Shown one piece after another: positions 875 to 19,675 of a stretch of 20,703 nt of DNA. The notes beneath the pieces were generated by a model. It was given only the letters and a program-made list of their open reading frames with translations, had not been told where the DNA came from and made no database searches. The DNA lies in IMG/VR virus record IMGVR_UViG_3300021509_000108, positions 1 through 20,703 of that record. One strand, 5' to 3'. The DNA comes from a virus. Both the position numbers and the translations under genes were made by a program. The first letter of the stretch is position 1. Each line of letters starts with the position of its first letter.

Positions 875-875
875 A

Positions 876-1583
876 ATGCAACAAATATTCAATAAGCTTA
901 AACAATACGAGCCACCACAAGATTTTGAACCGTTGAAAGTCATATTTAGGATGACCTCACCGATCATGTTAGGTCATCCTTTTATTCATTTCGATAGCTT
1001 GATTCTGCATCTCCTCTATCGTGATTTGCTCAGTGATGACTATTATTGCCTACCATCAAAAGACCCGATAGACTTCTCGCAATATGTCAAAGCGCCAATA
1101 AAGCAAACCGAAGATGTCTATCATACCTCGGTTTCGTTTTTTGATACAGATACGAAAATCGCAACAACCATATATAAACGGTTCTGTACCGAATATCTTG
1201 AATTGCTGAACACTAAGAAACGAAAGATAGCGAGGGGTAGCGGGTTTTATCGTGATTACATGATGCGTATGATTTATATACCAGCAAAAACAGTCTATTT
1301 CTTTGTAAATGCTAATAAGTCAGAAATATCTCGTTTATTGAAGTCAGTGGTTTATCTCGGTAAGAAGACAGCATACGGATTTGGTAGGGTGAAGAGCATT
1401 CATATAGAGAGGACAGATAATGATTATAGCATAATAAAAGATAGCAAAGCGATGCGTCCTATTCCAATGCGAATGTTAAGGGGCGCTGAAGTAAAGGCAA
1501 TGCTGGCATATAAGCCGCCATACTGGGATAAGCGTAATGTTGAATTATGTGCCTTTCCTGACTCGAATGTGGAAGTGCTATGA
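876..1583 (+). CDS. csf3: Type IV CRISPR-like protein Csf3 (Cas5-family RAMP)
   Basis: Csf3 normally caps the 5' handle end of the crRNA in type IV complexes. The 235-residue product starts after a short leader with a RAMP beta-strand (LKVIFRMTSP, about 20-29), followed by the Csf3-like LGHPFIHFDSLILHLL block (32-47). It then has a basic segment (KKRKIARGSGFYRDY, about 114-128) and the glycine-rich loop GKKTAYGFGRV (162-172). It lies 1 nt after csf2, with GAGGAGA at 856-862 as its ribosome site, and its TGA overlaps the next ATG. The csf2-csf3 pairing is what makes type IV more likely than a lone RAMP. No Cas6-like processing gene is seen, as in type IV-B. Assignment rests on recalled motifs and gene order. 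Confidence 0.7.
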   Translation: MQQIFNKLKQYEPPQDFEPLKVIFRMTSPIMLGHPFIHFDSLILHLLYRDLLSDDYYCLPSKDPIDFSQYVKAPIKQTEDVYHTSVSFFDTDTKIATTIYKRFCTEYLELLNTKKRKIARGSGFYRDYMMRMIYIPAKTVYFFVNANKSEISRLLKSVVYLGKKTAYGFGRVKSIHIERTDNDYSIIKDSKAMRPIPMRMLRGAEVKAMLAYKPPYWDKRNVELCAFPDSNVEVL

Positions 1584-5804: not shown

Positions 5805-5982
5805 ACGCGACACTTTCTTTGGAGCGACTTAATCTTTTGGAAGAATCCTTAAGAAAATCTGATTTAGACATGGATGTTGAGAAATGCCTTCTTGACGACC
5901 TATCTTGGGCTTTCTGGTCGCTCTTGGAAGTTGAGAAGCCCTAAATGGTCAATTTGATATTATAATAGTTACAGATGAGTGA
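5758..5982 (+). pseudogene. Frameshifted first copy of a five-member tandem paralogue family
   Basis: Homology to the four following genes can be read across three segments. ATG 5758 opens a frame beginning MTEV, as in copy MTEIVIFER. The match then moves to the next frame for LSLERLNLLEESLRK and on to LLEVEK, which ends at TAA 5942-5944. It returns to the first frame for ALNGQFDIIIVTDE, which ends at TGA 5980-5982 and overlaps the next gene's ATG by 8 nt. The two shifts are opposite in sign (+1 then -1) and restore the original frame. The aligned core (ALxGxFDIxxV) is the family's most conserved part. I read it as decayed; programmed frameshifting twice in so short a gene is unlikely, and assembly indels are possible. 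Confidence 0.65.
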
Positions 5983-6211
5983 GGTCTTCATCTTCGAGCG
6001 AGTCGGTGACACCTGGCGTTCCTCCAAACTCTCACTTGAGAAGAGAATGCTTTTGAGCGAACTTGAGGATTTAGAGTTAAGATTAGAACTTGATCCCGAA
6101 CCTCCGGTCAAGGCAATATTACTCAAGAACCTCTATGAAATCCGTTGTGATGTTCGACTCATTGATCAGGCCCTGATAGGAAGTTTTGATATAGTAGTGA
6201 TAGCGGAATGA
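5975..6211 (+). CDS. Tandem paralogue 1, 78-residue protein of unknown function
   Basis: This small helical protein begins MSEVFIFERVGDTW, has a charged amphipathic middle (SLEKRMLLSELEDLELRL), and ends with the family signature IRCDVRLIDQALIGSFDIVV. It shares this layout with the genes at 6208, 6437 and 6675 and with the broken copy at 5758. The start overlaps the previous copy's TGA by 8 nt and the stop overlaps the next ATG as ATGA, so the copies are translationally coupled. No known domain, cysteine motif or membrane segment is visible. Function is unknown. Confidence 0.8.
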   Translation: MSEVFIFERVGDTWRSSKLSLEKRMLLSELEDLELRLELDPEPPVKAILLKNLYEIRCDVRLIDQALIGSFDIVVIAE

Positions 6212-6444
6212 CCGAAATCGTTATCTTCGAACGGAAAAACACGGAACCTACAGAACTTTCTTTCAAGAGAAAACTTCTCGAGGCTAAGCTTAAGAAAATA
6301 AATCAAGAACTTAAGAAGGAAGATATCCTTCCTACTGTTAGGGAGAAGCTGCTCAATGATATGTACTTAATTCGTCGAGACATCCAACTTATTGACTATG
6401 CTTTAACTGGAAATTTCAATATTGTAATCATAGCAGATGGCTGA
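6208..6444 (+). CDS. Tandem paralogue 2, 78-residue protein of unknown function
   Basis: It begins MTEIVIFERKNTEPTELSF, has a Lys-rich middle (KLLEAKLKKINQELKKED), and ends with the family block IRRDIQLIDYALTGNFNIVI. The middle is much more basic than in copy 1, while the C-terminal block is retained. That pattern suggests the end is the functional or structural core and the middle is under diversifying change. It overlaps both neighbours (4 nt upstream, 8 nt downstream). Function is unknown. Confidence 0.8.
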   Translation: MTEIVIFERKNTEPTELSFKRKLLEAKLKKINQELKKEDILPTVREKLLNDMYLIRRDIQLIDYALTGNFNIVIIADG

Positions 6445-6682
6445 AGTAGTAGTTTACTTTCGGCTTGGAGAGAAATGGCTCATTAGCGATCTTGCTTCTG
6501 AACGCGAAAGTCTCCTTCGTACAATTGAGGACTGGGAATTTAGCTTTGAAGCAGAACCTTCTCAAGCTATCAAAAATGAAATTCTTCATGAACTCCATAA
6601 GACTTACTGTGAACTTCGTCAGATAGACCAAGCACTCACAGGTAAATTCGACTTGTTGATTGTAGACAATCCTGATGAGTGA
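6437..6682 (+). CDS. Tandem paralogue 3, 81-residue protein of unknown function
   Basis: It begins MAEVVVYFRLGEKWLISDL, continues with an acidic, aromatic middle (ERESLLRTIEDWEFSFEAEP), and ends CELRQIDQALTGKFDLLIV. Unlike copy 2 the middle is acidic. Both boundaries overlap neighbouring copies by 8 nt, the same spacing as between copies 0 and 1. That is consistent with duplication of a whole unit including its start-stop overlap. Function is unknown. Confidence 0.8.
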   Translation: MAEVVVYFRLGEKWLISDLASERESLLRTIEDWEFSFEAEPSQAIKNEILHELHKTYCELRQIDQALTGKFDLLIVDNPDE

Positions 6683-6921
6683 AGTTATCGTTCTCCTCAA
6701 AAACCTTGAAGGAATGGAATTTAAACGTCTTTCTTATGAGAGAGAAGAGAAGATTCATGATCTCGAGCAGACTGAAACAAGTTATAGAAGAAGATCCAGA
6801 GTTCGAGCCAGAATGGTTTAAAGACTACTATGATATTCGAAAGATGATTCAGCTTATTGACCAAGCGTTAAAGGGAAAGTTTAATCTTATTGTAGTTGCA
6901 AAATCTGACCAGAATATATGA
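6675..6921 (+). pseudogene. Tandem paralogue 4, frameshifted near the middle
   Basis: The family-like N-terminus starts at ATG 6675 (MSEVIVLLKNLEG...LSYEREEKIHDLEQ), with the usual 8-nt overlap with copy 3. That frame runs on to an early stop after about 48 codons. The conserved second half (LKQVIEEDPEFEPEWFKDYY, then IQLIDQALKGKFNLIVV) is one frame forward, ending at TGA 6919-6921. Dropping one base at about 6768 joins EQ to LKQVIEED and gives a full-length family member. An ORF starting at ATG 6679 in the second frame exists, but its N-terminus does not resemble the family, so it is either a new N-terminus or an artefact. The options are a +1 programmed shift, a real lesion or a sequencing indel. 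Confidence 0.65.
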
Positions 6922-7361: not shown

Positions 7362-7865
7362 CTATCTTCTTAACAAAATTTTTCGCCATCTGATCTGCTT
7401 CGCTCTTCTCTCCATTTCTACGATAGCAGGTCGCCAGTAAGGTCGCTCTCGAATGCCTCTTCTTTGTATCTTCTTTGCAACTGCCCACGCTGCCTGCCAG
7501 CCAAGGGGTGTAGCTCTCAATCTTCGTCTTCTCGTTTGCAAACTCAACTGCGATGCACCTCTCATGACGCCCTTCCTGATTACCCACTCCCGGATGACAT
7601 CAACAGGTGGAAGTCGTCCGGGAGGTCTACCCCACTCGACTGCCGGGGCATGCCTTGCTGTACTCACGACTTTTCGGGTCAAGGGATCAGGCCTCTGAAT
7701 TCTAAAGGATCGAAGAAGAATGCCCCGGTCTACCGCTCGCTGCTTGAGAATGTTCGATTGGACTTTCTGAACAAAGTCCCGTGCAAGGTTCTCTATGATT
7801 TGAGAGATATCTTTTTGAATCTGACTATGGATGCTTAATCCTCCAGACGTTGTAAGTTTGATCAT
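7362..7865 (-). CDS. HK97-gp10-like neck/tail-completion protein
   Basis: The 167-residue basic protein matches the gp10-like pattern. It has an N-terminal helix, AVDRGILLRSFRIQ (the V-x-T/R-G-x-L-x-x-S segment), then a strand ending HAPAVEWGRPPGRLPPVDVI and EWVIRKG. It closes with AWAVAKKIQRRGIRERPYWRPAI, the usual ...G...PF.RPA ending. Members sit in the neck and join the tail to the connector. The ATG at 7865 overlaps the previous gene's TGA as ATGA, with AGGAAG just upstream; a TTG at 7886 is possible but less likely. It is oddly placed: such genes usually sit between the connector and tail terminator genes, but here it is the last late gene, after the radical SAM and Cys-array genes. Confidence 0.65.
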   Translation of the reverse strand: MIKLTTSGGLSIHSQIQKDISQIIENLARDFVQKVQSNILKQRAVDRGILLRSFRIQRPDPLTRKVVSTARHAPAVEWGRPPGRLPPVDVIREWVIRKGVMRGASQLSLQTRRRRLRATPLGWQAAWAVAKKIQRRGIRERPYWRPAIVEMERRAKQIRWRKILLRR

Positions 7866-8341
7866 CTTCCTACCGACCTTCCACAATCACGTCCACAAAA
7901 CTGACCAACAGTTTCACAAGCGGTTTGGCAGGTCAACTGACAGGTAGATTGACAAGCTTGCTGACAATAACTCTGACAAGAAGATTCACAAGATGACTGG
8001 CAACTGGACTCACAGCTGGTCTGACATTGAGTTTCGCAGGTGTCCGGGTCGGAAGGAATGAAGAGTTCTTCGCTATCTTCGTATTCGCCATCGTCACAAC
8101 GACCAAGCCAGAGTTTGATCGTATAGGTTTGCCCACCATAGTCAATGAGTCGTCCAGCAACATAGCACTCTTGAGCATATTCATCATCAGAAGGCATGTG
8201 CCCGCACTGATTTTTAGGTTTTCCTCCGTGATATACGCAATTGTAATAACGTTCCCCTGCATTACAGTTCTTAACCCATATCTTGTAATAGGCGTTATGA
8301 TTTTCCCATCGATCAAAATCAAGCGCGGCTATGTATGCCAT
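7862..8341 (-). CDS. Cysteine-array protein, probable radical SAM substrate (RiPP-like)
   Basis: The 159-residue protein has two parts. Residues 1-100 look globular, aromatic- and Asp-rich (CNAGERYYNCVYHGGKPKNQ), with cysteines at 26, 35, 46, 59 and 82. Residues 102-142 are an uninterrupted array of 11 cysteines spaced exactly every four residues, with units of the form C-[EQ]-[STQ]-[SAT]. After the array come Cys149 and Cys153 and a Gly/Arg tail. No signal peptide is visible. A strong GGAGGT lies 8 nt before the ATG, and the start overlaps the radical SAM gene's end by 23 nt, so the two are coupled. I infer that the array is modified by that enzyme, for example with thioether crosslinks. Alternatives are metal binding or a disulfide/beta-spike virion protein. 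Confidence 0.8.
   Translation of the reverse strand: MAYIAALDFDRWENHNAYYKIWVKNCNAGERYYNCVYHGGKPKNQCGHMPSDDEYAQECYVAGRLIDYGGQTYTIKLWLGRCDDGEYEDSEELFIPSDPDTCETQCQTSCESSCQSSCESSCQSYCQQACQSTCQLTCQTACETVGQFCGRDCGRSVGR
7916..8038 (-). repeat. C-x3-C array: about ten tandem 12-bp coding units
   Basis: This segment encodes residues 102-142 of the Cys-array protein. Each unit is four codons beginning with a Cys codon followed mostly by Gln or Glu, then Ser/Thr, then Ser/Ala/Thr. Codon choice varies between units while the cysteine spacing never slips. That argues for selection on the protein pattern rather than a recent microsatellite expansion. Confidence 0.9.
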
Positions 8342-9305
8342 TTCTTACTACCTCCGTCAATAGTCTCTTGAGTTTACATTCGATTGGAATAGGTTCAATC
8401 ATATTACCCATGGCCAGATACGAATTCACATAGCATATCCCACAGATCGCAGTTGAGCATTGCTGACATTCTTTCCGTAGCGTTCCATACTGTCTGAACT
8501 CTCTTCGTTGTTCTTCATTAATTCCATTCCAAATATCACCAAGTGAGATTCCAATCTGCTGCCAACCTGAGACGTGATAGCATGGATAGAGCTTACCATC
8601 GTAGTTGATTGTAACTGAACCTCGACCTGCACCACATGCGATGTTCTCCACTCGCCATCCCTTTTCTATTCGTTGCTGAATCTTCCAAAAGGGAAAGATG
8701 TGTGGAAAGTCTCGATAGACCTCCTGGAGCTGTTCTTTCAAAATAAGTAAGTCTTGTTCTTGAAGACTGTAATCTGAAACAACATCGAAGTTCAACGCTA
8801 TTGAGTCTGAAAACTTTGCAGTATGAACGACTGCATCATATAGAAGCGAACATTCTGTGCTGGGGACAGTTATAGCAATTGAGAAAGGAATTTCTGATGA
8901 CTTCAATTTCTCTATATTCCGTTCAACCCTTGACTTTGTAGGTTCATTTGTCTTGGTTCGCCTGAATTTGTCATGCCAAATAGAATCATAGGAGACTAAT
9001 ACACTGATTTGATATTTCCATAGTAAATCGAGCGTCTCTTGACTAAGATTCACAAGATTCGTAGTAATGCCCTGAACCCGGATGTGGTTATCAAAGAATG
9101 CCTCTACAACGTTTCGAAACAATTCTTCGTTAAGGATCGGTTCCTGCTGAGGAATCTCGATTGATTGAATGCCTTCACGATGACAGAAGTCTACGATTTC
9201 GGGCAGTAGTGCAAGGTCAAGTTCAGCAGGTTCATTGTGTCGAAGGTAGCAGTACCGACAAGCCAAGTTGCAGGAGTTATTTATCCTCAAGAACCCTACT
9301 GTCAT
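8319..9305 (-). CDS. Radical SAM / SPASM-domain peptide or protein maturase
   Basis: The 328-residue enzyme has the radical SAM cluster motif CX3CX2C (C12, C16, C19 in SCNLACRYCYL). The usual GGE motif is replaced by QQEP (about 53-56). A C-terminal SPASM domain follows: C224 in ACGAGRGS, the G-x4-C pair G237/C242, then C280, C283, C288, C291 and C310, enough for two auxiliary clusters. SPASM enzymes commonly install thioether or C-C crosslinks in ribosomal peptides, or act as anaerobic sulfatase-type maturases. The next gene, overlapping by 23 nt, encodes the Cys-array protein, so that is the likely substrate. No Shine-Dalgarno precedes the ATG, and an AAATAT box lies 23-28 nt upstream, which is compatible with a leaderless transcript and an internal promoter. 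Confidence 0.92.
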   Translation of the reverse strand: MTVGFLRINNSCNLACRYCYLRHNEPAELDLALLPEIVDFCHREGIQSIEIPQQEPILNEELFRNVVEAFFDNHIRVQGITTNLVNLSQETLDLLWKYQISVLVSYDSIWHDKFRRTKTNEPTKSRVERNIEKLKSSEIPFSIAITVPSTECSLLYDAVVHTAKFSDSIALNFDVVSDYSLQEQDLLILKEQLQEVYRDFPHIFPFWKIQQRIEKGWRVENIACGAGRGSVTINYDGKLYPCYHVSGWQQIGISLGDIWNGINEEQRREFRQYGTLRKECQQCSTAICGICYVNSYLAMGNMIEPIPIECKLKRLLTEVVRNGIHSRA

Positions 9306-9343
9306 TTTGTTATAAGATGCTCATATTTGGCTTCTATTGCAAT
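9303..9343 (-). promoter_or_regulatory. Late intergenic repeat, copy C1 (radical SAM promoter region)
   Basis: Read on the minus strand, it begins ATTGCAAT, passes through CCAAATATGAGCATC, and ends at the radical SAM ATG. It aligns with the repeats at 18565-18614 and 10262-10312. A second TATA-like box, TTTTATAC, lies at 9359-9366. Depending on which box is used, the repeat is the core promoter itself or an operator over the start site. Confidence 0.5.
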
Positions 9344-9417
9344 TTTATGATCAAGAAGGTATAAAAGTATTCGAGGATCAAAAAAATTCAAGATAACTCG
9401 AAATTTGAGTGTCTCGT

Positions 9418-9675
9418 TTAGAATCTCCGCAGGATTGCCTTCAAGATATTTTCTACAACGGCTATGACACCTACATAGGCAGCGAGCTGTGCCATTACAT
9501 TGCTCTCAGTTATCTCCAGTCCAGAGGCATACATTATTGCTCCGACACCCATGCCTACGATGACAGTTGCAGCGAACTTCGTTACTTCAAAACTCTCGAA
9601 ATTGGAAGACTTCAGATAACCACTTGCTGCGAACACAGCCGCTGCTATGATTGCAATAAGGATTGTCATATCCAT
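9418..9675 (-). CDS. Small membrane protein with about three TM segments, possible holin
   Basis: The 85-residue product is dominated by hydrophobic stretches at about 3-19 (MTILIAIIAAAVFAASGYL), about 33-50 (AATVIVGMGVGAIMYASG) and about 62-78 (AQLAAYVGVIAVVENILKA), with a basic C-terminus (LRRF). The size, topology and place after the tail genes fit a holin-like lysis protein, but nothing diagnostic is present and no endolysin gene lies next to it. A very strong AGGAGGTGGT at 9681-9690 sits 5 nt before the ATG, suggesting high expression. The 112-bp gap downstream carries the promoter region of the radical SAM gene and a near-palindrome (ACTCGAAATTTGAGT) at about 9398-9413. Confidence 0.7.
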   Translation of the reverse strand: MDMTILIAIIAAAVFAASGYLKSSNFESFEVTKFAATVIVGMGVGAIMYASGLEITESNVMAQLAAYVGVIAVVENILKAILRRF

Positions 9676-9702
9676 GCTACACCACCTCCTAAATTCAACA
9701 AC

Positions 9703-10161
9703 TCAATAAATGTAGGGAAGAACTGATTGTTTAATGAAGCATTCCTCCACTAACTTTGTAACTGCGATCATTAATGCCATTACTTTCTTGGTCTGTTCTG
9801 GACTGAGATGCCAGGATTCGCATAGACTCTTGACGGAAGTCTCAAACTGCCAGCCCTGGCGGTCTCGCTGTCTGAGTTCCCTAAGAATATCATTGACATC
9901 ATCAACGAGTTCTTCTGGTTTGACGATTTCTGGCTCCAAGGCGTCTTCAAGCATCTTCTGCATAGTCACCAGCGAAACCCGGTCGGAAATCCATAAGGTG
10001 AATTCTTGTTCCTTGAACTTAAGGTTGAACTTGACTGTCTTCTGGCCTGTTTCTTCATTTTCTACGATTCCCCAGATAACTGAGAAGTCTTTAACCTCTT
10101 TACTACTTGAACCATCCCAGACGGTACACTCAACAGGTTTGTGCTTATCTTCTGAATCCAT
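9703..10161 (-). CDS. Hypothetical protein, 152 residues
   Basis: I recognise no family. The N-terminal ~75 residues look like beta-strands (VWDGSSSKEVKDFSVIWGIV, KTVKFNLKFKEQEFTLWI). The rest is helical and charged (DDVNDILRELRQRDRQGW, SPEQTKKVMALMIAVTKLVE). The start is ATG 10161, with GAGAGGAG a few bases upstream; the in-frame TTG at 10176 is rejected. It lies between the tail hub and the holin-like gene and is probably a late accessory gene. The upstream gap carries two copies of the late intergenic repeat and a tiny ORF. Confidence 0.7.
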   Translation of the reverse strand: MDSEDKHKPVECTVWDGSSSKEVKDFSVIWGIVENEETGQKTVKFNLKFKEQEFTLWISDRVSLVTMQKMLEDALEPEIVKPEELVDDVNDILRELRQRDRQGWQFETSVKSLCESWHLSPEQTKKVMALMIAVTKLVEECFIKQSVLPYIY

Positions 10162-10188
10162 TCTTACTCCTCTCAATGATTTTGTGCT

Positions 10189-10248
10189 CTAAGCCTCCAA
10201 ATTTGACCGTGATTGCAATTTTTTCTTACTACCTGATGTTTTACTCAT
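10189..10248 (-). CDS. Possible 19-residue basic leader peptide
   Basis: ATG 10248 follows AGGAGCACC and encodes MSKTSGSKKKLQSRSNLEA before TAG. The ribosome site is good, the peptide is Lys/Ser-rich, and it lies between repeat copy A and the hypothetical gene at 10161. Ten to twenty codons is too short for coding statistics, so it may be chance or a leader ORF. Confidence 0.3.
   Translation of the reverse strand: MSKTSGSKKKLQSRSNLEA
10197..10219 (-). repeat. Late intergenic repeat, partial copy C2
   Basis: On the minus strand it starts ATTGCAATCACGGTCAAAT, close to the first half of copies A (10262-10312) and B2 (18565-18614). It is inverted relative to copy A, 43 bp away, so the gap holds an imperfect inverted repeat. 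It overlaps the tiny ORF at 10189-10248, so part of that ORF's sequence is repeat-derived. Confidence 0.5.
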
Positions 10249-10261
10249 GGTGCTCCTAAAG

Positions 10262-10312
10262 ATTGCGTCTATGGTCAAATATATGCGTCTCACGCGAAAT
10301 TTAACGGGACTC
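10262..10312 (+). promoter_or_regulatory. Late intergenic repeat, copy A (probable promoter/operator)
   Basis: It begins ATTGCGTCTATGGTCAAAT and runs into the last codons of the hub gene. It contains the dyad GCGT-CTC-ACGC (10285-10295) flanked by AAAT (10277-10280) and ATTT (10299-10302). Read on the minus strand it holds the TATA-like CATATATTTG about 27 nt before the tiny ORF start. It aligns over ~50 bp with both copies upstream of purM. Confidence 0.55.
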
Positions 10313-12508
10313 TACAAAGCATTTGACCCAGGCATCGAATTGGAACCTGCCAAGATTACCAGAACTGAGACCAACTTCGATTTCATTGTTACCGGGCTCG
10401 AAGTAGTCCGCGAGGTTACCTTCCTTAGAAAAGATGTTAGACCAGACTTCGTGACCATTGACCTTAAGATAAAGGTTATTGCTCGACCCCTCATATATTC
10501 CATGCTGAAGTTCATGAGTATGCGATTTAATGCTATGAGTATGCGAGGGAAGCATAACGGAATGAGTGTGTTCGTATTCAACTTCTCGGAAGCCAAGAAT
10601 ACCAAGACATTGCGCTGCTCCACTTGCCGCAACTTCGATCCTGAGCCTATGACCAGCAACAGTACTGTCCGTAATAGGCGTAAATTTAAAGGCTCGCGCT
10701 CGACCCCACTTTATAACGGTTTCTCTTCCCATTTCCTCTATCAATTCATCTGTCTGGTCGTCCTTTAACCTGACATATTTCAGACCAAATCCCTCTCTAT
10801 AACTGAAATTCAACACTAAGGCAACAACTCTTGTCCGCTTATGCCTTTTGGGATCATATTCAGCAGGTGCATCTAATTTGAAGATTGTTCCTGCCGGAGA
10901 TACCTCAGTTGTCATGAACAATGACATGTCATCATTCCTGCAGAATGTCGAGACTATCTCAGAAGTGGTATGCGAGCCAGCAGAAGTTCCCGAAACACCA
11001 CCACCTGCTTCAGTCGTTGTCTGACCACCTGCCTTTGTAACTTTCTCATAACTACGCCAGGGAAGGGACTTGAGACTGACCCTGACGAGGTTGATTGCGA
11101 CTGCATCTTCAGGGATTCTGAGTGTAAACCTGAAGGGTTTGGACGAATCAATTGACTCGACTATGGGACCAACCTGATAGAGGTTCGTAGCACCTTGTCC
11201 ATAAGCTTGTTCAAGTGTAACTTCTCGTTCAATGGACTTAATCTCTTCAAGCAGTGGAGAATAGACCTGACCTGCCTTGATTGTTGTTCGAGGATAAGGC
11301 TTCTCAGAATATTTGATTTCAGCAATAATCCAATCCTCTCCATCATAAGTGAGTTTGAACCCAGGCAGCCCGTTGTAATCGTCCATGTAAGCAGTCTCAA
11401 GAGTAAGGGACTTGCTGGGTTGGGCATGACTCTCAATAACTCGATTGGCATACCTGTCGAGACAGTTCTGATCAATAATGCTCTTATCCTTTATGACCCT
11501 TGACTGCAATCCAAATTGCTTAATTGACGAAGTTGCATGAGGGTATGACACCGAGAAGGCAGGTCGAACAATGATACCCTTCTCGTGTCGATATGCTGAG
11601 AGTCCTGGCGACTTACCTCTTTCTGTCACATGAAGCTTGTAGAGAGAATCGGTAGAGGTTCGATTATCAAAATGTAGTAGCTCCCGACCAATCCAAATAT
11701 CTCCAGATAAAGGGAAGCTTGCCGGTTTGGTAATCTTGATAGTAAACGGAGGAGTTGCAGACTCCGAAATCTCAGTCTTCAATACCGCCCGTTGCTCGCC
11801 AGCACTATGATCGTCATAGCTCCAGAGCTGGTTGATTCCATCACCACGACCAAGTACCTTGGCAGCATTGATTATCGAACGGGAGCGGGAGGTACTGACC
11901 CCTCGAACCTTGGAGTCGGAAACTGAAGCTGACGAGATCGAACCCGGTACAAAGATTTTAACCCTCTCGTGTAGATAATATCCATTTTGCCAATCCTCGA
12001 AAGAAAGATACCAGCTCGCACCAATTAGAGATAGGAGTTTTGCAAGGAGTTTGAGAATCGAGTCCCGTGATATTCTGAAGGAGACCTTCTCATCGAGGAT
12101 CGAATTGGAAGTATCGAAAAGAAGAGAAGTATCGGTAACCTCTTTGTACTGGTTCTTCAAAGTCTGAATAACTGTCCGAGCCGTGACGTTAGAGAAGACC
12201 TGTTCCTCACCTGCATCCTGATCAAGTTTGATTAAGGCATCATAACCTGTGAACTCTAATTGTTGAGAGAACTTGTTATAGTTTTTCTTCACGATCCTGC
12301 CTTGGATGGGCACATAGTTAGGTTCGGATAACGAGGAACTCTTCAATGTAAATAATGACCAGAAGTCAATTGAATCAGCTTCATCCTTTGAGACTCCAAC
12401 CAGAGTACCCTTCACCAACGTAAGCTGACCTTGCTTCCGAGTTATCTCGAGACCTACTACTCGATTACGATAACTCCCATTTCTATCAATCCACAAGTCC
12501 CATTTCAT
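10301..12508 (-). CDS. Tail hub / baseplate protein with His-Thr-His triplets
   Basis: This 735-residue protein sits after the tape measure gene, where siphovirus-type tail tip hub proteins are found. The first ~400 residues look like the hub fold: MKWDLWIDRNGSYRNRVVGL, then GRIVKKNYNKFSQQLEFTGY, and an IIAEIKYSEKPYPRTTIKAG strand region. A Gly/Ser/Thr-rich linker lies around 500-520, followed by a beta-rich C-terminal half. At 647-649, 656-658 and 663-665 there are three HTH triplets plus His669. Such HxH motifs bind metal along trimeric tail fibres and needle tips. The protein may therefore combine hub and fibre/needle roles. The start overlaps the previous gene as ATGA, and the stop lies inside repeat copy A. 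Specific family unproven. Confidence 0.7.
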   Translation of the reverse strand: MKWDLWIDRNGSYRNRVVGLEITRKQGQLTLVKGTLVGVSKDEADSIDFWSLFTLKSSSLSEPNYVPIQGRIVKKNYNKFSQQLEFTGYDALIKLDQDAGEEQVFSNVTARTVIQTLKNQYKEVTDTSLLFDTSNSILDEKVSFRISRDSILKLLAKLLSLIGASWYLSFEDWQNGYYLHERVKIFVPGSISSASVSDSKVRGVSTSRSRSIINAAKVLGRGDGINQLWSYDDHSAGEQRAVLKTEISESATPPFTIKITKPASFPLSGDIWIGRELLHFDNRTSTDSLYKLHVTERGKSPGLSAYRHEKGIIVRPAFSVSYPHATSSIKQFGLQSRVIKDKSIIDQNCLDRYANRVIESHAQPSKSLTLETAYMDDYNGLPGFKLTYDGEDWIIAEIKYSEKPYPRTTIKAGQVYSPLLEEIKSIEREVTLEQAYGQGATNLYQVGPIVESIDSSKPFRFTLRIPEDAVAINLVRVSLKSLPWRSYEKVTKAGGQTTTEAGGGVSGTSAGSHTTSEIVSTFCRNDDMSLFMTTEVSPAGTIFKLDAPAEYDPKRHKRTRVVALVLNFSYREGFGLKYVRLKDDQTDELIEEMGRETVIKWGRARAFKFTPITDSTVAGHRLRIEVAASGAAQCLGILGFREVEYEHTHSVMLPSHTHSIKSHTHELQHGIYEGSSNNLYLKVNGHEVWSNIFSKEGNLADYFEPGNNEIEVGLSSGNLGRFQFDAWVKCFVESR

Positions 12509-12870
12509 GTTCCGTAATATTGGTTAAGTGTAAGAGTGAATTTCCATTGAGCTTCACCTTCGATATAAGTGACTATACAACTCTCGACACAGGTTTTGAG
12601 TACGCGATTTCCTTCATGGGGAAACGTAACTTCAATGCCTCCTTCGCTACCATCCCATGAGGCAAGCTTGGAGAGAAAGGTATTCTTTGCGACATGATCT
12701 GTCCAGAATCCTTCCATAACGATCTTAGAGGTTATCTGCTTGAGATCGAGCATAATTGTTTCAGCACCAGGAAGAGGGGAGACTATTGGCTGCTTACTCA
12801 CTCGTTCTGCAATTTTCTCAACTTTGAGAGTAACTTTATCACTCCCAACCCCTATTTCTATTTCAGGCAT
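12505..12870 (-). CDS. Small tail/baseplate protein, 121 residues
   Basis: It is translationally coupled to the tape measure gene (start overlaps its TAA) and to the hub gene (ATGA). It is beta-rich: an N-terminal EIEIGVGSDKVTLKVEKIAE, a middle KIVMEGFWTDHVAKNTFLSK, and a C-terminal strand EGEAQWKFTLTLNQYYGT. The position between tape measure and hub is that of a distal tail or small baseplate protein. I cannot name the family. The role is inferred from position and compact beta content. Confidence 0.7.
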   Translation of the reverse strand: MPEIEIGVGSDKVTLKVEKIAERVSKQPIVSPLPGAETIMLDLKQITSKIVMEGFWTDHVAKNTFLSKLASWDGSEGGIEVTFPHEGNRVLKTCVESCIVTYIEGEAQWKFTLTLNQYYGT

Positions 12871-14534
12871 TAGAGAATCGCCTCCATTCTCCTCTGGAGT
12901 AAACTCGCAATCTCGTCCGCTAATTCCTCAACAGACTTACCTTCTTCTTTGACTTCTACATTCACAGTTATCGAAGGTGAGAATTGAACAACCTTCGATT
13001 CTGGAGAAGGGACACCAACATGAACTTTGGGAGTTTCAAACCCACGAGCAGCGAAACCCTGACTGAGCGTACGAGCAAAAATCGCAGGAATTTCCGAGAT
13101 TCTGGGAGAGAAGCTTATTAAGCCTGCTGCCCAATCCCGAAGCTTGTTAGCTACATCCGAGAGCCCTGATCTAATAGAGTTCCAAATTCTGCTACCAATG
13201 TTTGCCAGACCTCTCACGAGCTGATCAACCAAATACCGTCCTGCCTCAAGGAAGGCTGAAGCAAACGATCGAATTCGTTCGACTACCGAGGACCCAAATT
13301 CTCTCACTCGCTCGACAAACGCGTTGATCTTATCACTTGCGATTCTAACCCATTCTCCAAGTCGACCGCCGGTAAGATCGTTAAGTGTATCGTAAGCGCC
13401 TTGTGTGAGATTCAAAATAACTTGTGACCAGTCCTGGAGTGCTCCGGGAATATCACCTCGTAAAAGTTTATCCCAGGCGCTTTTCATTAGGGGGAGTTGG
13501 TCATTTGTAATCCTAACCATCGAAGAAAGACCCTCAACGAACTTCGACTTTAGAAGACCCACTCCGCGATCAACAACTGCAGTCAAACCCGGAAAATGCT
13601 CTTGGAAGAATCCATGAATTCTCTCGAGCATTGTTCTATGAACAGCAACAAAAGCCCGCAACCCATTTGACGCTCGCTCAGGCAAGGAACCGAAAAAGTA
13701 TGCAATTGTGTCTTTCGCTGAACTTGCCCAATTCGCAATAGCAGAGCCTGCTGTCGAAAGAGCACCTCTGATCTTACCGGGCAATTCAGAAAAGAACTGA
13801 GGCAAACCCGCAAAGAATTCGATTATCTTTATTCCTAAATCCTTCAAGAATCCTGCTACTGCCAGAATCCCCGCCTTAATTACAGCCCCAACCCGATTGA
13901 GAATATCCCGCATGCCAAACCAATTGAACTTCCAAGCAAGAAAGAGAAAACTGACAACTGCGATGATAGCAAGGATTGCCCAACCGATGGGTCCCGCACT
14001 AATAAGAGCGGCAATGCCTCCGACTGCGAGCCTTGTGATAGCCAGTATCCCTATCCAGACAAATTTGAAGATACCAAGTAGTGGCATGAGAATGAAACCG
14101 AATACCTTTAGGATGGTAATGACGGTCACCAATGCTCCAAGAAACAGAAGAATTGCACCAATGGCACCCCTGACTGGTGCCGGCAGGCTTCTCCACCACT
14201 TATAGAGCTTCATCAACCACTCGACAATCTTCAGAAAGAAGGGTATCAATGGAGCTAACGCCGTATCAAGGAAGGCAGTAAAAATACTACCAAGTCCTCG
14301 AATGAATGCAGATAGGACGGTGCTACGAAGGATTATTTCCCGAACAGAATATCCTACTGCTGCAGCCCACGCTAACCAGCTTACCTTCTGGACAAGAAGG
14401 TTTCGTTCAGTGTCGCGGGTTGATCGTCTTGATGTCCTGCCTAAATCCTCGATAGAAGACCCGACCTTTCTTAGTCCTCCAAGCGCTTGTGAGATTCTGG
14501 CAGAAATGTTATATATGAGTGAATATTCAACCAT
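12870..14534 (-). CDS. Tape measure protein
   Basis: The 554-residue protein sets tail length and is ejected with the DNA. The N-terminus has helical, Ser/Arg-rich sequence (SARISQALGGLRKVGSSIED). Hydrophobic segments lie at about 50-75 and 120-200 (ILLFLGALVTVITILKVFGF, AGPIGWAILAIIAVVSFLFL). A long amphipathic helical region follows to about 470, then a beta-like tail (SKVVQFSPSITVNVEVK) and a terminal helix. That arrangement and its place between the tail chaperone and baseplate genes are typical. It is short for the family; at about 1.5 angstrom per residue it would imply a tail well under 100 nm, an inference from the family rule. Confidence 0.9.
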   Translation of the reverse strand: MVEYSLIYNISARISQALGGLRKVGSSIEDLGRTSRRSTRDTERNLLVQKVSWLAWAAAVGYSVREIILRSTVLSAFIRGLGSIFTAFLDTALAPLIPFFLKIVEWLMKLYKWWRSLPAPVRGAIGAILLFLGALVTVITILKVFGFILMPLLGIFKFVWIGILAITRLAVGGIAALISAGPIGWAILAIIAVVSFLFLAWKFNWFGMRDILNRVGAVIKAGILAVAGFLKDLGIKIIEFFAGLPQFFSELPGKIRGALSTAGSAIANWASSAKDTIAYFFGSLPERASNGLRAFVAVHRTMLERIHGFFQEHFPGLTAVVDRGVGLLKSKFVEGLSSMVRITNDQLPLMKSAWDKLLRGDIPGALQDWSQVILNLTQGAYDTLNDLTGGRLGEWVRIASDKINAFVERVREFGSSVVERIRSFASAFLEAGRYLVDQLVRGLANIGSRIWNSIRSGLSDVANKLRDWAAGLISFSPRISEIPAIFARTLSQGFAARGFETPKVHVGVPSPESKVVQFSPSITVNVEVKEEGKSVEELADEIASLLQRRMEAIL

Positions 14535-14539
14535 TTCTG

Positions 14540-14680
14540 CTATTCTCGATTATCTGATTTCGATTTTCCCAATGAAGAAACTTTAGCAAGAGAAAGATAG
14601 TACAATCCTAATGGATTATCACAGATACGTGGTGGTACACCAATATATTTTAACCAGGGATTCTCAACATAATTATCCAT
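14540..14680 (-). CDS. Short ORF, 46 residues, between tail chaperone and tape measure genes
   Basis: ATG 14680 overlaps the stop of the frameshift-encoded chaperone extension, and its TAG lies 5 nt before the tape measure ATG, so it fills the gap exactly. The product (MDNYVENPWLKYIGVPP..., then LGLYYLSLAK, basic end) is aromatic, with Pro-rich turns. It matches nothing I know. Its perfect tiling argues that it is real, perhaps a third tail assembly component. Confidence 0.5.
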   Translation of the reverse strand: MDNYVENPWLKYIGVPPRICDNPLGLYYLSLAKVSSLGKSKSDNRE

Positions 14681-14903
14681 TCTTCAAACGCTCAGCCTCC
14701 CGACGCTCTTCTTTTGCGATGAGATTCAAAAACTCTACATAAATCAAGACGTCTCGTGCTGGCAACTGACGAACCTCTAAGGGTGAGATATGTAACTCAC
14801 GAGCGAGTTGAACCTCGACGAAATAGGGAGAGTATTCATTTGTAGCTCCATAAAAGGCTTCCCTGATAGCTCTTCTTTCACTTGGTTGTAGGACGAAAGG
14901 ATG
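14673..14903 (-). CDS. Tail assembly chaperone extension (gpT-like), made by ribosomal frameshift
   Basis: This 77-codon frame has no plausible start codon and is open from just past an in-frame TGA at 14904-14906 to TAA at 14673-14675. It overlaps the end of the chaperone gene by 26 nt. The encoded sequence (VLQPSERRAIREAFYG, then LARELHISPLEVRQLPARDV and EFLNLIAKEERREAERLKNG) resembles C-terminal chaperone domains. It needs a +1 (or -2) shift. The best site is TTT-C at 14895-14898, where tRNA-Phe could re-pair from TTT to TTC, joining LTSF to VLQPSE. The fused product would be about 173 residues. Tail chaperone fusion is known in lambda (gpG/gpT) and many tailed phages; +1 is less common than -1. 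Confidence 0.75.
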   Translation of the reverse strand, partial: HPFVLQPSERRAIREAFYGATNEYSPYFVEVQLARELHISPLEVRQLPARDVLIYVEFLNLIAKEERREAERLKNG

Positions 14904-15195
14904 TCAATGGTAGATGTCTCTCTAACTCTGAGCCAACTGACTCTTCCAATCTCTCGAGATTCTCTCTCGTGACCTCAAAGGGAGCTTCCACGACAGCATA
15001 TAGCGCAAGATCAATAGTAAAACCTGCCCAATCTATCTCAAATTCGCCTGATGGCTTGATAACCACGTGCTTCGAGAGAAGTCGCTGACGCTCCAACCAC
15101 GAGATATTCTTCCGAATTTTGAACTTAAACTCCTGATCGCCACGTTTGATAATAACAGTTTCAGGTTCTTCTTCCTCTACAAATAGACCTTTCAT
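14878..15195 (-). CDS. Tail assembly chaperone (gpG-like)
   Basis: The 105-residue acidic protein lies directly after the major tail protein (ATGA overlap) and before the tape measure gene, the conserved position of the gpG chaperone. It begins MKGLFVEEEEPETVIIKRGD and has a helical second half (FEVTRENLERLEESVGSELE). Its TGA lies 26 nt downstream of where the +1 frame opens, which gives the short and long forms typical of this gene. The chaperone is thought to coat the tape measure protein during tail polymerisation. Confidence 0.8.
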   Translation of the reverse strand: MKGLFVEEEEPETVIIKRGDQEFKFKIRKNISWLERQRLLSKHVVIKPSGEFEIDWAGFTIDLALYAVVEAPFEVTRENLERLEESVGSELERHLPLTSFRPTTK

Positions 15196-16091
15196 GCGAA
15201 ATCACCCTTTGCCTCTATAACTAAGTCCTTAAAGACTAAATTGATCTCGGTTTCAGTCAAGCCTTCTTCAGGCACTGGATGAGGTGCAGTCCGAACTTTA
15301 CCATCCTTTGCTGTGATCTCGCAGTAATCAGTCGCAGCATCTCGTGAGATTTTCGCAACTATATCTATCTCAGACTGATCCAAAAGATAATCGAGGATCT
15401 TCCGATCTGAAGGATTAACTGTCAATCTACCAGTTATCTCCCGTCGCTTGTCCACGATAACAGTTGGATAACCATCTCCACTATCCGATTTCTCATATCT
15501 CTTCTCCTCAAGATTGTTGTTGATCTCAACCTCCCATCGTGTAACCTGATACTCGGATCCATCAATACTTACAGCGGTATGATAGGCAGTGGTAAGATTC
15601 TTCCGACTGCCACTTGGAGTCGTCCATGAATTGACAGGTGGCTTCAGTCCCAAGATTTCAAATTCCGTTGTGAAGACTCCGCCTTCTTCAACAGCAAACC
15701 TTGCCCGATTTACATATACTCCACGATACTGTCGTTTCACGTTGGATTCTGCCGAATTATAGATTTCTAACGAAAATGAAGGCAACGGATGGGCTATTTT
15801 GTATGTTGTAATACCACCAGCAACTGACGAAGTACCCAGTGCCATCTTGAACATCGAGGCAGAGTAAGGTTCAAATCGAATCCTGCCACGTACTGTCTTC
15901 CGAACCGGGATAATGAGTCCAGGCACAAACTTGTTTTCCCAGTACTTAGGTTCGAATTCCATCTCAGGCTCAGGCGTTTCAATTGTAAGGATATGTCCGG
16001 GAATCAAATAAAACGAACCGGGTGCAGAACCAGGAGTTGACTCCTCACCCCAACCGATCTGGGTAGTCTCCCGCATAAAGACCTTGACCAT
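15192..16091 (-). CDS. Major tail (tube) protein
   Basis: The 299-residue, beta-rich protein starts with the common tube-protein opening (TTQIGWGEESTPGSAPGSFY). It is followed by ETPEPEMEFEPKYWENKF and PVRKTVRGRIRFEPYSASMF, and in the second half VTRWEVEINNNLEEKRYEKS and a typical EITGRLTVNPSDRKILDYL segment. It is predicted to form the hexameric rings of the tail tube. It is followed by the chaperone gene (overlap) and preceded by a 40-bp gap after the tail terminator gene. GGAGAG lies just before the ATG. Confidence 0.88.
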   Translation of the reverse strand: MVKVFMRETTQIGWGEESTPGSAPGSFYLIPGHILTIETPEPEMEFEPKYWENKFVPGLIIPVRKTVRGRIRFEPYSASMFKMALGTSSVAGGITTYKIAHPLPSFSLEIYNSAESNVKRQYRGVYVNRARFAVEEGGVFTTEFEILGLKPPVNSWTTPSGSRKNLTTAYHTAVSIDGSEYQVTRWEVEINNNLEEKRYEKSDSGDGYPTVIVDKRREITGRLTVNPSDRKILDYLLDQSEIDIVAKISRDAATDYCEITAKDGKVRTAPHPVPEEGLTETEINLVFKDLVIEAKGDFA

Positions 16092-16131
16092 TTCTCTCCA
16101 TCACTCCACCACGTTTATTAGAACTCTAACT

Positions 16132-16554
16132 CTATTCATAGTATTTCACAAGGCTGAACTCGAAAGTTGGATAGATTATCCCATGAGTTTCCTCAAGATT
16201 GAACTCTACCCGCTCAAGTTTCATAATGTCAACACCCTCAAATGGATCACGACCTCCCCTATCGAAAAGAGTTGTAAGTACGATGTCCTCTACTGTATCG
16301 AGTTCGTCTTCTATTGAGGAATATACTGACATCTCAGCCAACCATGTGCGACGTCTCGCTTTATAGCCTAAGCCCACGACCTCGACTGTTTCATTCACAA
16401 TGTTGAAGACGAAAGACGTGCGATTTCTTAAGTCAAGAGCCTTGATCTCATTGATATTCCAATAGACCCGCTGCTTGTCCTTCCACTCAGTAGCCTGGTA
16501 TCGAGTCTCAAGAGCATCTTGCCAGAACTCCTTGAAGGAATTCAGTATCCTCAT
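16132..16554 (-). CDS. Tail terminator-like protein, 140 residues
   Basis: Length and position, right before the major tail protein and after the connector gene, match tail terminator (gpU-type) proteins that stop tail growth. Sequence features are an N-terminal helix (NSFKEFWQDALETRYQATEW), beta-strands (RRRTWLAEMSVYSSIE), a short acidic helix, and a C-terminal strand (YPTFEFSLVKYYE). No diagnostic motif is visible, so the name depends on synteny. It is coupled to the upstream gene by an ATGA overlap. Confidence 0.6.
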   Translation of the reverse strand: MRILNSFKEFWQDALETRYQATEWKDKQRVYWNINEIKALDLRNRTSFVFNIVNETVEVVGLGYKARRRTWLAEMSVYSSIEDELDTVEDIVLTTLFDRGGRDPFEGVDIMKLERVEFNLEETHGIIYPTFEFSLVKYYE

Positions 16555-17444
16555 ATCAAACTTGCCTCCTTCCGACGTTGAATGATGGCTCGGCAGTCGT
16601 CTCTGTAATTCTCCGCTCGCTGCGCGATTTCAATAACTGAATTAACACCTGCAGGCAGCAGATGCTGATATGCCTCACTTTGGAGAATATCCACTGCAAC
16701 GAGCTTGGTACAGAGCTCACGAATGTCCGCTGGCACCTCCGAATAGCCCCATTCATAAGAGACTCGAATATCGAACCTGCGACCCCACCACCAGATTCGT
16801 CGAACCTTAAGAACTCCATCCTCAAGTCGCCAGATGTTACCTTCAGAGTCCTCTGTCCAGTCGCCCCACCACCAGTAGCGATACTCGAACTTAGTTATCT
16901 TCTGAACTGGCTTGTGATTCAAAAACACTGGTATCCAACCTATTGCCTGCGGTGACCGGACATCAAGAGTATGAACTTCGTCAGTAGTGGTTTGCTTCGT
17001 AAAGGAGGTATTCAAAAGCTCATCAATGTACCGTTCCTTTGCAACCAACCAGCGAGCAACCTCTTGCTCGGATGGCGTTGTCTCATCCGTAATGTCTTGG
17101 TGCAATAGAGTCGCTACCTCCAAGACAGAGGAATATTTGGGTATCAAAACCTGAGGCAAGACTGTAAAGTAACCCCTGTCCAGAATCTTCGTAGATCCAA
17201 CGACACCTTCGAAGAGATAACTCCATTGTGCAGCATAGCTAATATCAAGGTCCGAAGGCACATTGTAATCATAGTAATACGATCCAAGCGCTTGCTTACT
17301 GGCTGTATCCCGGTCTACGACTTTTGAACCTGAGTTGTTCCAAATAGTAACGTAAACCTCGTCAGGATCGAAGAGGTCACCGTCCCAATCATAGAATTCT
17401 GCTCTGAGCCGAAGCGACTCGCCTACTTCAACTGTTTCACCCAT
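16551..17444 (-). CDS. Head-tail connector (gp6-like) with N-terminal Ig-like domain
   Basis: Residues ~1-95 form a beta-sandwich-like unit (GESLRLRAEFYDWDGDLFD, ALGSYYYDYNVPSDLD, ILDRGYFTVLP). The remainder resembles the helical connector fold: EVATLLHQDITDETTPSEQE, VARWLVAKERYIDELLN, then a Trp-rich hairpin region and ADIRELCTKLVAVDILQSEA. Connectors of this group form a dodecameric ring under the portal. At 297 residues it is about twice the usual size because of the added domain, which could decorate the neck. It has AAGGACGAG before the ATG and starts 10 nt after the purM stop. Function is inferred from fold-like pattern and gene order. Confidence 0.6.
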   Translation of the reverse strand: MGETVEVGESLRLRAEFYDWDGDLFDPDEVYVTIWNNSGSKVVDRDTASKQALGSYYYDYNVPSDLDISYAAQWSYLFEGVVGSTKILDRGYFTVLPQVLIPKYSSVLEVATLLHQDITDETTPSEQEVARWLVAKERYIDELLNTSFTKQTTTDEVHTLDVRSPQAIGWIPVFLNHKPVQKITKFEYRYWWWGDWTEDSEGNIWRLEDGVLKVRRIWWWGRRFDIRVSYEWGYSEVPADIRELCTKLVAVDILQSEAYQHLLPAGVNSVIEIAQRAENYRDDCRAIIQRRKEASLI

Positions 17445-17454
17445 ATCTCGTCCT

Positions 17455-18477
17455 TCATCTTGTTATAAACTCTTCAGTTAAATATACCCGTCTTCCGCCT
17501 CCTTTGATTACATTGCCAATATTATACGCATTGACCTTGTGTTTCCCTGCAATCTCAATTATTCTTTCCTCTTCTGTTTTAGAAGCTATGATGCAGAACC
17601 CTATACCCATATTAAATATCCGGAACATTTCCTCAATTGGTACTTTACCGAGTCGCTGCAGCAACTTAAAGATAGGAGGCGGTTCAGGAAAATTCGAAAT
17701 TTTGAAACTAACATCTGCTTTTATTCTTCCCAAATTCAAAAGACCTCCACCCGTAATGTGTATTAAGGCCTTTACATCGAGTCCAGACCTGATCATCTCC
17801 ATTATTTCAGGGACGTAAATATGAGTTGGCTTCAGAAGCTCTTCTCCTATAGATCCATCGAACTCTTCAAAGTGCTCATCTATACTAATATGGTTTCTTT
17901 CGAGTATTCGCCGTGCTAATGTGAATCCATTACTATGAATTCCATTACTTTGAAGACCGATAATAACATCCCCGTCTTGAACCGTACTCCCAACGATTAA
18001 TTTATCAAGGGAAACTTTCCCAACTGCCATTCCCGCCAGATCGAACTCATAACCCGCTCGCTCGCCCGTAATGACATTTTCCATTATAGCTGTCTCTCCA
18101 CCAGAAATACTTATCCGTGCGATCTCTGCACCCTCCCTCAACCCCTTACCGATTTCCCGGACCAACAGAGGATTAGAACGAGAAACCACTATATAGTCAA
18201 GCATAGTTATAGGTTCAGCTCCTACACAGAGAAGATCATTGACATTCATTGCGACGCAGTCAATACCAATAGTGTCATACTTATTTAGCATCTGTGCGAC
18301 TAACACCTTTGTTCCCACTCCGTCAGCAGATAAGGCTATTCCCATACCCTCCCCAACATCAATTACATTTGCGAAATATCCTATATCAAGCCCGACCTTG
18401 TCATATAGAAATGTCTTACGAATATAAGGAACAAGTTCTGTTAACATTTCCTCCTCTATTTGTTCCAATAATTTCAT
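17455..18477 (-). CDS. purM: Phosphoribosylformylglycinamidine cyclo-ligase (AIR synthetase)
   Basis: It converts FGAM to AIR with ATP in de novo purine synthesis. All family marks are present over 340 residues: SADGVGTK (50-57), TIGIDCVAMNVND (69-81), GAEPITMLDY (86-95), SISGGETA (123-130), QSNGIHSNGFTLAR, HITGGGLLNLGRI and FRIFNMGIGFCII. It appears full length and intact. It heads the transcription unit for connector and tail genes, only 10 nt before the connector gene, with two repeat copies (18486-18614) upstream. No Shine-Dalgarno is evident, and a CCAAAATTTAG box lies 22-32 nt upstream, compatible with a leaderless message. Purine genes occur in some phages as auxiliary metabolic genes; lodging in a virion operon is unusual. 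Confidence 0.96.
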   Translation of the reverse strand: MKLLEQIEEEMLTELVPYIRKTFLYDKVGLDIGYFANVIDVGEGMGIALSADGVGTKVLVAQMLNKYDTIGIDCVAMNVNDLLCVGAEPITMLDYIVVSRSNPLLVREIGKGLREGAEIARISISGGETAIMENVITGERAGYEFDLAGMAVGKVSLDKLIVGSTVQDGDVIIGLQSNGIHSNGFTLARRILERNHISIDEHFEEFDGSIGEELLKPTHIYVPEIMEMIRSGLDVKALIHITGGGLLNLGRIKADVSFKISNFPEPPPIFKLLQRLGKVPIEEMFRIFNMGIGFCIIASKTEEERIIEIAGKHKVNAYNIGNVIKGGGRRVYLTEEFITR

Positions 18478-18485
18478 TTTTCAAT

Positions 18486-18537
18486 ATTGCGCCTATGGCT
18501 AAATTTTGGACGTATAACGCAAAATTTAACTTGACAG
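18486..18537 (+). promoter_or_regulatory. Late intergenic repeat, copy B1 (purM promoter/operator)
   Basis: It starts ATTGCGCCTATGG and contains the clearest dyad of the family: AAATTTTG (18501-18508) and CAAAATTT (18520-18527), a perfect 8-bp inverted pair around an inner CGT-ATA-ACG. The element lies 9-60 nt upstream of the purM ATG. It overlaps the AT box expected to act as TATA, so a dimeric regulator bound here would control transcription. Confidence 0.6.
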
Positions 18538-18564
18538 GTATTAAGATATAGGCTACCCAATAAA

Positions 18565-18614
18565 ATTGCAACCACGGGCAAATATATGCGTCTCATGACA
18601 AATTTTATAGGTCT
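18565..18614 (+). promoter_or_regulatory. Late intergenic repeat, copy B2
   Basis: It begins ATTGCAACCACGGGCAAAT, continues with ATATGCGTCTCATG, and ends over the stop of the 18-residue-repeat gene, just as copy A ends over the hub gene stop. It is in the same orientation as B1, about 79 bp away, giving a tandem pair upstream of purM. Confidence 0.55.
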
Positions 18615-19675
18615 CCTTCATCGAACTCTAAGACTTGATTACCTAACTTCGCACGTCGAGCAAAGTACCAGAGTTTGATGGCTTTAGCCAAAAGAACAAC
18701 CTTACTTATAACCTCTTCCCGCTGACTTGTTTCCAAACTCTGTCCAGACTCAACTGACTTAAGTAGTGCCAGCGCCAATACATCATTATCAAATAAAGCA
18801 CCGACATCAGTTGCTGATTTTGAGACTAATCCCTCTTTCTGTACATTGCCTAATTCAAGAAGCGAACTTATATCGAGTCTTCGTAGAGCTACATTAAGTA
18901 AACGATCATCGAAACCCAATCCTACATCAAGTCCTAAGATCGAAGACTGCGTCAAGGCAGAGTCTTTAAGAGTGTTTACATCAGAAGACCGAAGCCAAGA
19001 CGCTACCAGACTTGCGTCAAAACCTGATCCTATTTCGGACCTTGAGAACGCGGATTGCACCAAAGCGAAGTCCCTTAGGACGTCGAAATCAATGACTGAT
19101 AGAGAGGTATCCAATTTCTTTAGTGATAACCCCTTACCAACATCTATTGATTGAAGTTGAGCTGCTGTTGAGCTTATCTCCTTAAGAAAACCTGCATCGC
19201 TACCTAACTTGGAAGTAGAGCTTAACAGAAGACTTGACTCTAAATACTCGCTAATGTCCAACGATGCTAGTGTAGCGAAGAGACTCGAAACTTCATGAGA
19301 TGAAAGGAAATCTGAAGAGTGAAGTATTGAACTTAATACCAGCGATTCAGTTCCAATAGTTGTATCCACTTGGGAGAATGTAGCGTTATACCCGAATGTT
19401 TCAAGTCCCGAACCTATCTCCGCTCGTTGGTTAGAAGCCATTAGAGTTATCATGTCCAGCAGAAATCCGATCTCAGATTCAGAGATAAGAGAGGAAAGAA
19501 GCTCAACCTCTGCAAAGCTACCAACGTCGGAAGAAGAAACCTCGACTGCGGAAGGCTCTGGATTCTCGTGAAATACAAATGTAGAGCCCAATCCCCATTT
19601 GACAACAACGAGGTCTCCGCTGGAGTTAAAGAGCTGGACACTTCCTAATCCCCACGAGACACTATTTACCGCCAT
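18605..19675 (-). CDS. Repeat protein built of 18-residue units, unknown virion or surface protein
   Basis: The 356-residue protein is rich in Ser, Leu and acidic residues, with no cysteine. After an N-terminal part holding two WGLGS motifs (8-12, 27-31), an [DE]-[IV]-G type motif recurs at residues 50, 68, 86, (104), 122, 140, (160), 178, 196, 214, 232, 250 and 268, an 18-residue period. Typical units are SEIGSGFDASLVASWLRS and LDVGLGFDDRLLNVALRR. The C-terminus turns helical and basic (VVLLAKAIKLWYFARRAKLG), then acidic. No signal peptide is seen. It overlaps the beta-helix gene by 10 nt. A solenoid fold and a fibre or adhesive role are inferred. I recognise no family. Confidence 0.75.
   Translation of the reverse strand: MAVNSVSWGLGSVQLFNSSGDLVVVKWGLGSTFVFHENPEPSAVEVSSSDVGSFAEVELLSSLISESEIGFLLDMITLMASNQRAEIGSGLETFGYNATFSQVDTTIGTESLVLSSILHSSDFLSSHEVSSLFATLASLDISEYLESSLLLSSTSKLGSDAGFLKEISSTAAQLQSIDVGKGLSLKKLDTSLSVIDFDVLRDFALVQSAFSRSEIGSGFDASLVASWLRSSDVNTLKDSALTQSSILGLDVGLGFDDRLLNVALRRLDISSLLELGNVQKEGLVSKSATDVGALFDNDVLALALLKSVESGQSLETSQREEVISKVVLLAKAIKLWYFARRAKLGNQVLEFDEGDL
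18821..19528 (-). repeat. About 13 diverged 54-bp coding repeats (18 residues each)
   Basis: The region encodes residues 50-285 of the repeat protein. The unit consensus is roughly [S/L]-[D/E]-[IV]-G-x-[GFL]-[LF]-x4-L-x2-S-x3. Spacing is exactly 18 residues in most steps, with one step of 20 in the middle and the last step longer. The DNA is well diverged between units. Confidence 0.75.

Follow-up and report, generated by a model that had tools for sequence, protein, structure and literature searches.

Inverted pairs of a conserved 44-bp element bracket a TATA-like box before many genes of probably archaeal tailed viruses

How viral genes are controlled has been worked out in only a handful of archaeal viruses. 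In halovirus HF2, class I and class II intergenic repeats of 58 or 29 bp are proven promoters that carry a TATA box and a start site (PMC8707807). In SSV1, the small repressor F55 acts on several viral promoters, each of which has two sites that overlap the BRE and the start site (PMC5569661). In SIRV2 and other archaeal viruses, a conserved early sequence surrounds the BRE/TATA core before many genes, and some of these sequences contain inverted repeats (PMC11065993). In the open-licence literature we came across the HF2 repeats that carry promoters and the early sequences conserved in other archaeal viruses, but no paired, inverted module with a fixed spacing.

The repeats described here resemble those of HF2 in that they are intergenic, occur at several gene boundaries of one presumably archaeal virus, and are kept in its relatives. 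In HF2 the TATA box is inside the repeat unit, whereas here it lies between two inverted 44-bp elements held at a rigid spacing of 78–80 bp, in what we predict to be a promoter. As with the F55 operators, there are two sites per promoter, which we place relative to the BRE and the start site by means of the TATA box. The F55 sites are tandem ATAGATAG sequences of a spindle-shaped virus; consensus, size, orientation (inverted), and virus type are all different here. Like the SIRV2-type sequences, one conserved regulatory sequence surrounds the core before many genes of one virus. Those regulons are early and mostly anti-defence, whereas the two-element module is common to genes of tailed viruses for structure, replication, and metabolism. 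The module appears to be an undescribed, shared switch for viral transcription that is reused before many genes.

The window, that is, the whole stretch of DNA that was analyzed, is a 20.7-kb IMG/VR virus record. Its minus strand carries tail, connector, and head genes, and its plus strand carries NrdD, RNase H-like, and nucleotide genes. The first-pass annotation had described five repeats confined to the big late gaps, and all five are present near the positions it gave. The gaps that hold them (112, 139, and 127 bp) are the largest among the leftward genes, and the largest gap of the window, in the rightward operon (5805–5974), is without any copy. Copies were also said to end over a stop codon. 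This is true of those at 10262 and 18565, which reach the stops of genes 10301–12508 and 18605–19675, but the copy at 9303 covers the radical SAM start codon instead. The copies match each other both as direct repeats (10259 versus 18562, 76% over 54 nt) and inverted (9306 versus 18560, 74% over 43 nt), and a perfect AAATTTTG/CAAAATTT pair is found at 18501/18520 within the 18486 copy. A sixth copy, overlooked at first, emerged once a profile had been built (pair A distal element, Table 1). It is weak, with 16 bits in leave-one-out scoring, and completes three pairs in the window.

Table 1. Module elements and downstream genes in the window
Feature	Positions	Strand	Remarks
Radical SAM/SPASM gene	8319..9305	-	downstream of pair A; Pfam PF04055, PF13186
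Pair A proximal element	9303..9346	-	ends on radical SAM ATG; 44-bp profile score 35.4
Pair A TATA-like box CTTTTATACC	9358..9367	-	between both elements
Pair A distal element	9383..9426	+	score 16.5; 80 bp from partner
Function-unassigned gene	9703..10161	-	downstream of pair B
Pair B proximal element	10179..10222	-	weak 3' half; 18 nt before 10161 ATG; score 17.4
Pair B distal element	10259..10302	+	runs onto 10301-12508 stop; score 41.0; 80 bp spacing
purM-like (AIR synthase) gene	17455..18477	-	between pair C and head-tail adaptor gene; Pfam PF00586/PF02769
Pair C proximal element	~18482..18535	ambiguous	degenerate, near-palindromic; just before purM ATG
Pair C TATA-like box CTATATCTTA	18542..18551	-	between both elements; conserved in relatives
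Pair C distal element	18562..18605	+	runs onto 18605-19675 stop; score 46.4

One relative, G001 (IMGVR_UViG_3300024423_000001, 63.8 kb), shares 70–79% nucleotide identity over most of window positions 10302–18703. The orthologue of the weak pair A distal element scores 35.6 in G001 (1196–1239). The pair C proximal element has a profile score of only 5.8; it aligns to the 10259 copy with 75% identity over 53 nt and is kept in two relatives (L002 and L024). Both pair C elements are kept in G001 directly before the head-tail adaptor gene, with no purM there, so that purM separates the first tail-operon gene from the promoter region in the window and not in G001. The copy at 10262 is missing at the orthologous end of the 10301–12508 gene in G001, and weaker copies precede G001 577–1065, which looks like a homologue of the function-unassigned gene 9703..10161. 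Further pairs in G001 precede the radical SAM gene, a gene that we take, from our own reading of its sequence, to be glycosyltransferase-like, and others.

We trained a 44-bp profile on 14 sites from the window and G001. The sites scored 12–48 bits when left out in turn, compared with a best score below 10 in shuffled sequence. Neither an exact 17-mer search of viral contigs nor the use of purM as a bait returned a match or a relative, respectively. We then scanned 2.9 million viral contigs with a degenerate one-element pattern and, where a contig had true matches, analyzed most of its sequence. After retraining, the profile picked out 82 elements in ~430 kb, whereas shuffled sequence gave two above an identical cut-off; the consensus is approximately AAAATTTC...AAATATGTGCRTCTcATGCAAAATTT. 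The same element occurs in ~19 IMG/VR contigs, some of them near-identical to each other, and all contain pairs; G002, with only one convincing element, was excluded from this count. The element is thus conserved in both related and distantly related virus contigs.

Pairing is the rule throughout this set. A partner was located 77–80 bp away for 83 of the 86 elements scoring at least 25 bits, as opposed to 199 of 70,000 random positions (0.3%). Two later scans with other one-element patterns, which held no pair information, recovered new contigs whose elements were again paired at 77–80 bp. When every distance from 44 to 159 bp was considered, the reverse/forward pairs (51, or 26 non-redundant) were all spaced 78, 79, or 80 bp start to start. 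The two 44-bp elements are inverted toward each other across a spacer of 34–36 bp, giving a module of ~124 bp. A few pairs are oriented otherwise (++ in G001 at 42720 and in G008; -- in G005 and G007 at 61037 and 67960, respectively). No reverse/forward pairs were found at 68–70 or 89–90 bp. Since looping of the DNA should be indifferent to shifts by whole helical turns, this points to a rigid complex.

Read along the gene, the module consists of a reversed distal element, ~11 bp, a TATA box, ~17 bp, and a forward proximal element, followed by the ATG; the distal element overlies the end of the upstream gene. Of 22 sampled pairs, 12 have a TATA box (e.g. CTATATAAAA or GGTATATAATTATACC) that begins 9–12 bases into the spacer, nearer to the distal than to the proximal element, whereas shuffled spacers gave an expectation of 1.4 and a maximum of 6 of 22 pairs. 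In most pairs, the next ATG lies at −13 to +33 relative to the proximal end, and the upstream stop lies near the distal end. The genes that follow include radical SAM, purM or the head-tail adaptor, PCNA, a DNA methyltransferase, an RNA ligase, a scaffold-like head protein, and the NrdD operon. Late genes are therefore served, as the original designation of the repeats as late elements implied, but so are replication and metabolic genes (PCNA, DNA methyltransferase, RNA ligase, and the NrdD operon).

A TATA box at a fixed place upstream of the gene start, as in these 12 of 22 pairs, is what is expected of archaeal (BRE/TATA) promoters; pair B of the window departs from it. The pair B spacer contains no recognizable TATA box, nor does that of the homologous pair, so the promoter role of pair B is the least certain. 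A Shine-Dalgarno sequence and a short reading frame (MSKTSGSKKKLQSRSNLEA) that overlaps the proximal element are present in this region (10192–10248), and the same start opens the longer gene 577–1065 in G001. Elsewhere in the window, Shine-Dalgarno sequences are clear at the 10161 and 9675 starts and are lacking at the radical SAM and purM starts.

Other exceptions to the gene context are the near-identical pairs at G005 61037 and G007 67960, which sit within long reading frames, and a few pairs in G004 and G006 without a clear gene after them. In both of the latter contigs, three pairs follow in a row, ~200–300 bp apart, with no clear genes between them (G004, L052, 1043–1565; G006, 52576–53606, also given as L060 12976–13606). 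These clusters could possibly give rise to small transcripts or form a control region. Such gene-poor clusters, together with the presence of several copies per genome, would also be expected if the sites served replication, packaging, or recombination rather than transcription. Most pairs, however, fit between a stop and the next ATG and have an oriented TATA box, and we find a function of this kind quite improbable.

The inverted ends, the constant length near 124 bp, and the several copies per genome would also suit a miniature transposable element inserted between genes, the 44-bp elements being its terminal inverted repeats. The interior of such an element should not diverge faster than its ends, yet it varies more here (45% versus 58% identity, with 35% for shuffled spacers, part of the excess of 45% over 35% being the shared TATA box). 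Mainly the TATA box is kept in the interior, most copies are at gene starts, some are orthologous between relatives, and none were seen in host genomes. A transposable origin is, in our estimation, exceedingly unlikely.

We also considered that the repeats act as RNA and control translation or termination, either as leaders that fold into hairpins or through a long stem formed by the two arms. The proximal element would fall within the 5' leader and each element contains a loose dyad, both of which fit this reading. On the other hand, we detected no compensatory changes within elements, two arms resemble each other no better within a pair than across pairs (21.3 versus 22.5 of 44 positions), the distal copy would be upstream of the start, and there is no Rfam match. 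The T-runs at the distal end were tried as a terminator and did not clearly exceed in length those at the mirror position, leaving this idea unsupported. A role as RNA thus has very little to recommend it.

Finally, a pattern scan of 257 Gb of prokaryotic genomes produced 20 matches, which is about chance level; these were low-scoring or, in several cases, apparently within coding sequence, presumably that of CTP synthase from our own reading of the translation. The only convincing match (L037), and the only one to combine a high score with a position outside coding-like sequence, shares 99.7% identity with virus contig G003 and represents a virus contig binned in a metagenome-assembled genome (MAG). 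No convincing chromosomal copy of the kind that a mobile repeat would leave was found in these genomes, in line with the expectation set out with the original proposal. The data also bear on the view that the viruses have a genuine promoter here but exploit a regulator or chromatin protein of the host, which binds its elements. A common host would account for the sharing of the element by distantly related virus groups, and we identified no regulator family common to all virus contigs. Against this view stand the chance-level genome matches and a class-level scan of the kin of the L037-bearing MAG, which gave no other match, although the true host class may lie outside the genomes scanned. We regard a host-derived regulator as unlikely, while giving it some weight.

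Together, these data led us to conclude that the repeats are probably operator elements of a virus-specific promoter module, in which an inverted pair surrounds a TATA core and one regulator controls all such promoters. A two-operator promoter is favored over a mobile repeat or an RNA leader because the spacers vary beyond the TATA box, the arms show no covariation, and there is no convincing chromosomal copy. The earlier proposal of a shared promoter/operator is strongly supported in this respect by the first-gene position, the conservation, the TATA box, and the lack of convincing chromosomal copies; it needs amending in that the unit is an inverted pair bracketing the core promoter and not a single element.

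Archaeal transcription starts ~26 bp after the TATA center. On this basis, the distal element would span roughly −84 to −41, and the proximal element roughly −6 to +38; in the window, starts would be expected near 9336 and 18520 on the minus strand, slightly within the respective proximal elements. In HF2, the TATA box begins at −26 (PMC8707807). The TFB-recognition region would then directly follow the distal element, and the predicted start site and the 5' leader would be covered by the proximal element, at whose end the downstream gene begins. Both would flank the place where TBP, TFB, and the polymerase assemble. One regulator, either viral or recruited by the virus, probably occupies the two elements in dimeric or higher oligomeric form, and may open or close all module promoters together; binding of the elements by a dimer, as first proposed, is plausible given the dyad. 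Since the proximal element overlaps the initiation region, we favor occlusion, i.e. repression, when both sites are filled. By analogy with F55 in SSV1 (PMC5569661), a regulator filling both sites could shut or time the promoters; activation from the distal site would be an alternative. A bolder and less likely reading is that the viruses have a transcription complex of their own that forms on the two elements simultaneously and holds the host initiation machinery in position, or locked, between them. This would amount to a new class of viral promoter in which the geometry, and not the motif alone, is conserved across distantly related tailed archaeal viruses.

In the search for a regulator, no DNA-binding regulator common to all contigs was found. 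All that the three virus groups share is NrdD, an ERCC4 nuclease, a primase-like protein, and a single small protein family (that of G001 10732–11163), which has no recognized domain and a predicted fold that is not confident (pLDDT 44). A winged-helix protein of G001 was rejected as a shared regulator, as it has no homologue in the other contigs, and none of the proteins scanned, which were part of the total, contained the ribbon-helix-helix domain of an F55-type repressor. The 124-bp module itself could serve as bait for finding the regulator.

The tailed viruses that bear the module are probably archaeal. Related contigs encode a family B polymerase, an ERCC4 nuclease, and PCNA, which together with the TATA boxes point to an archaeal host. 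The MAG with the G003-like contig belongs to an archaeon; TBP is present in it and MCR gave no match. The link to the virus is weak, as it depends on the binning of a 3.4-kb viral contig. NrdD, PhoU, and PAPS genes are listed for ANME-1 viruses (PMC9894754), and similar genes here make these viruses a candidate group. For uncultured viruses, the module provides a signature that can be computed: it flags promoters and first genes, gives predicted start sites with a precision of a few bases, and groups contigs that have few proteins in common.

Several further features of these contigs were noted. The left contig end of the window (35–1583) encodes a RAMP-superfamily protein (type III CRISPR Cas7-like, PF03787) and possibly a second one. 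Four paralogous genes of ~80 amino acids each are arranged in tandem at 5975–6921, and a run of similar genes is also present in G001. The 877-amino acid ligase-like protein of G001 (L007 9680–12313) apparently contains an intein. The radical SAM/SPASM gene is overlapped by the reading frame (7862–8341) of a 159-amino acid protein with a long run of CxxxC repeats, which is also conserved in the relative (L006 2279–2758). The two have the appearance of a cysteine-rich peptide and its dedicated maturase within a viral tail module.
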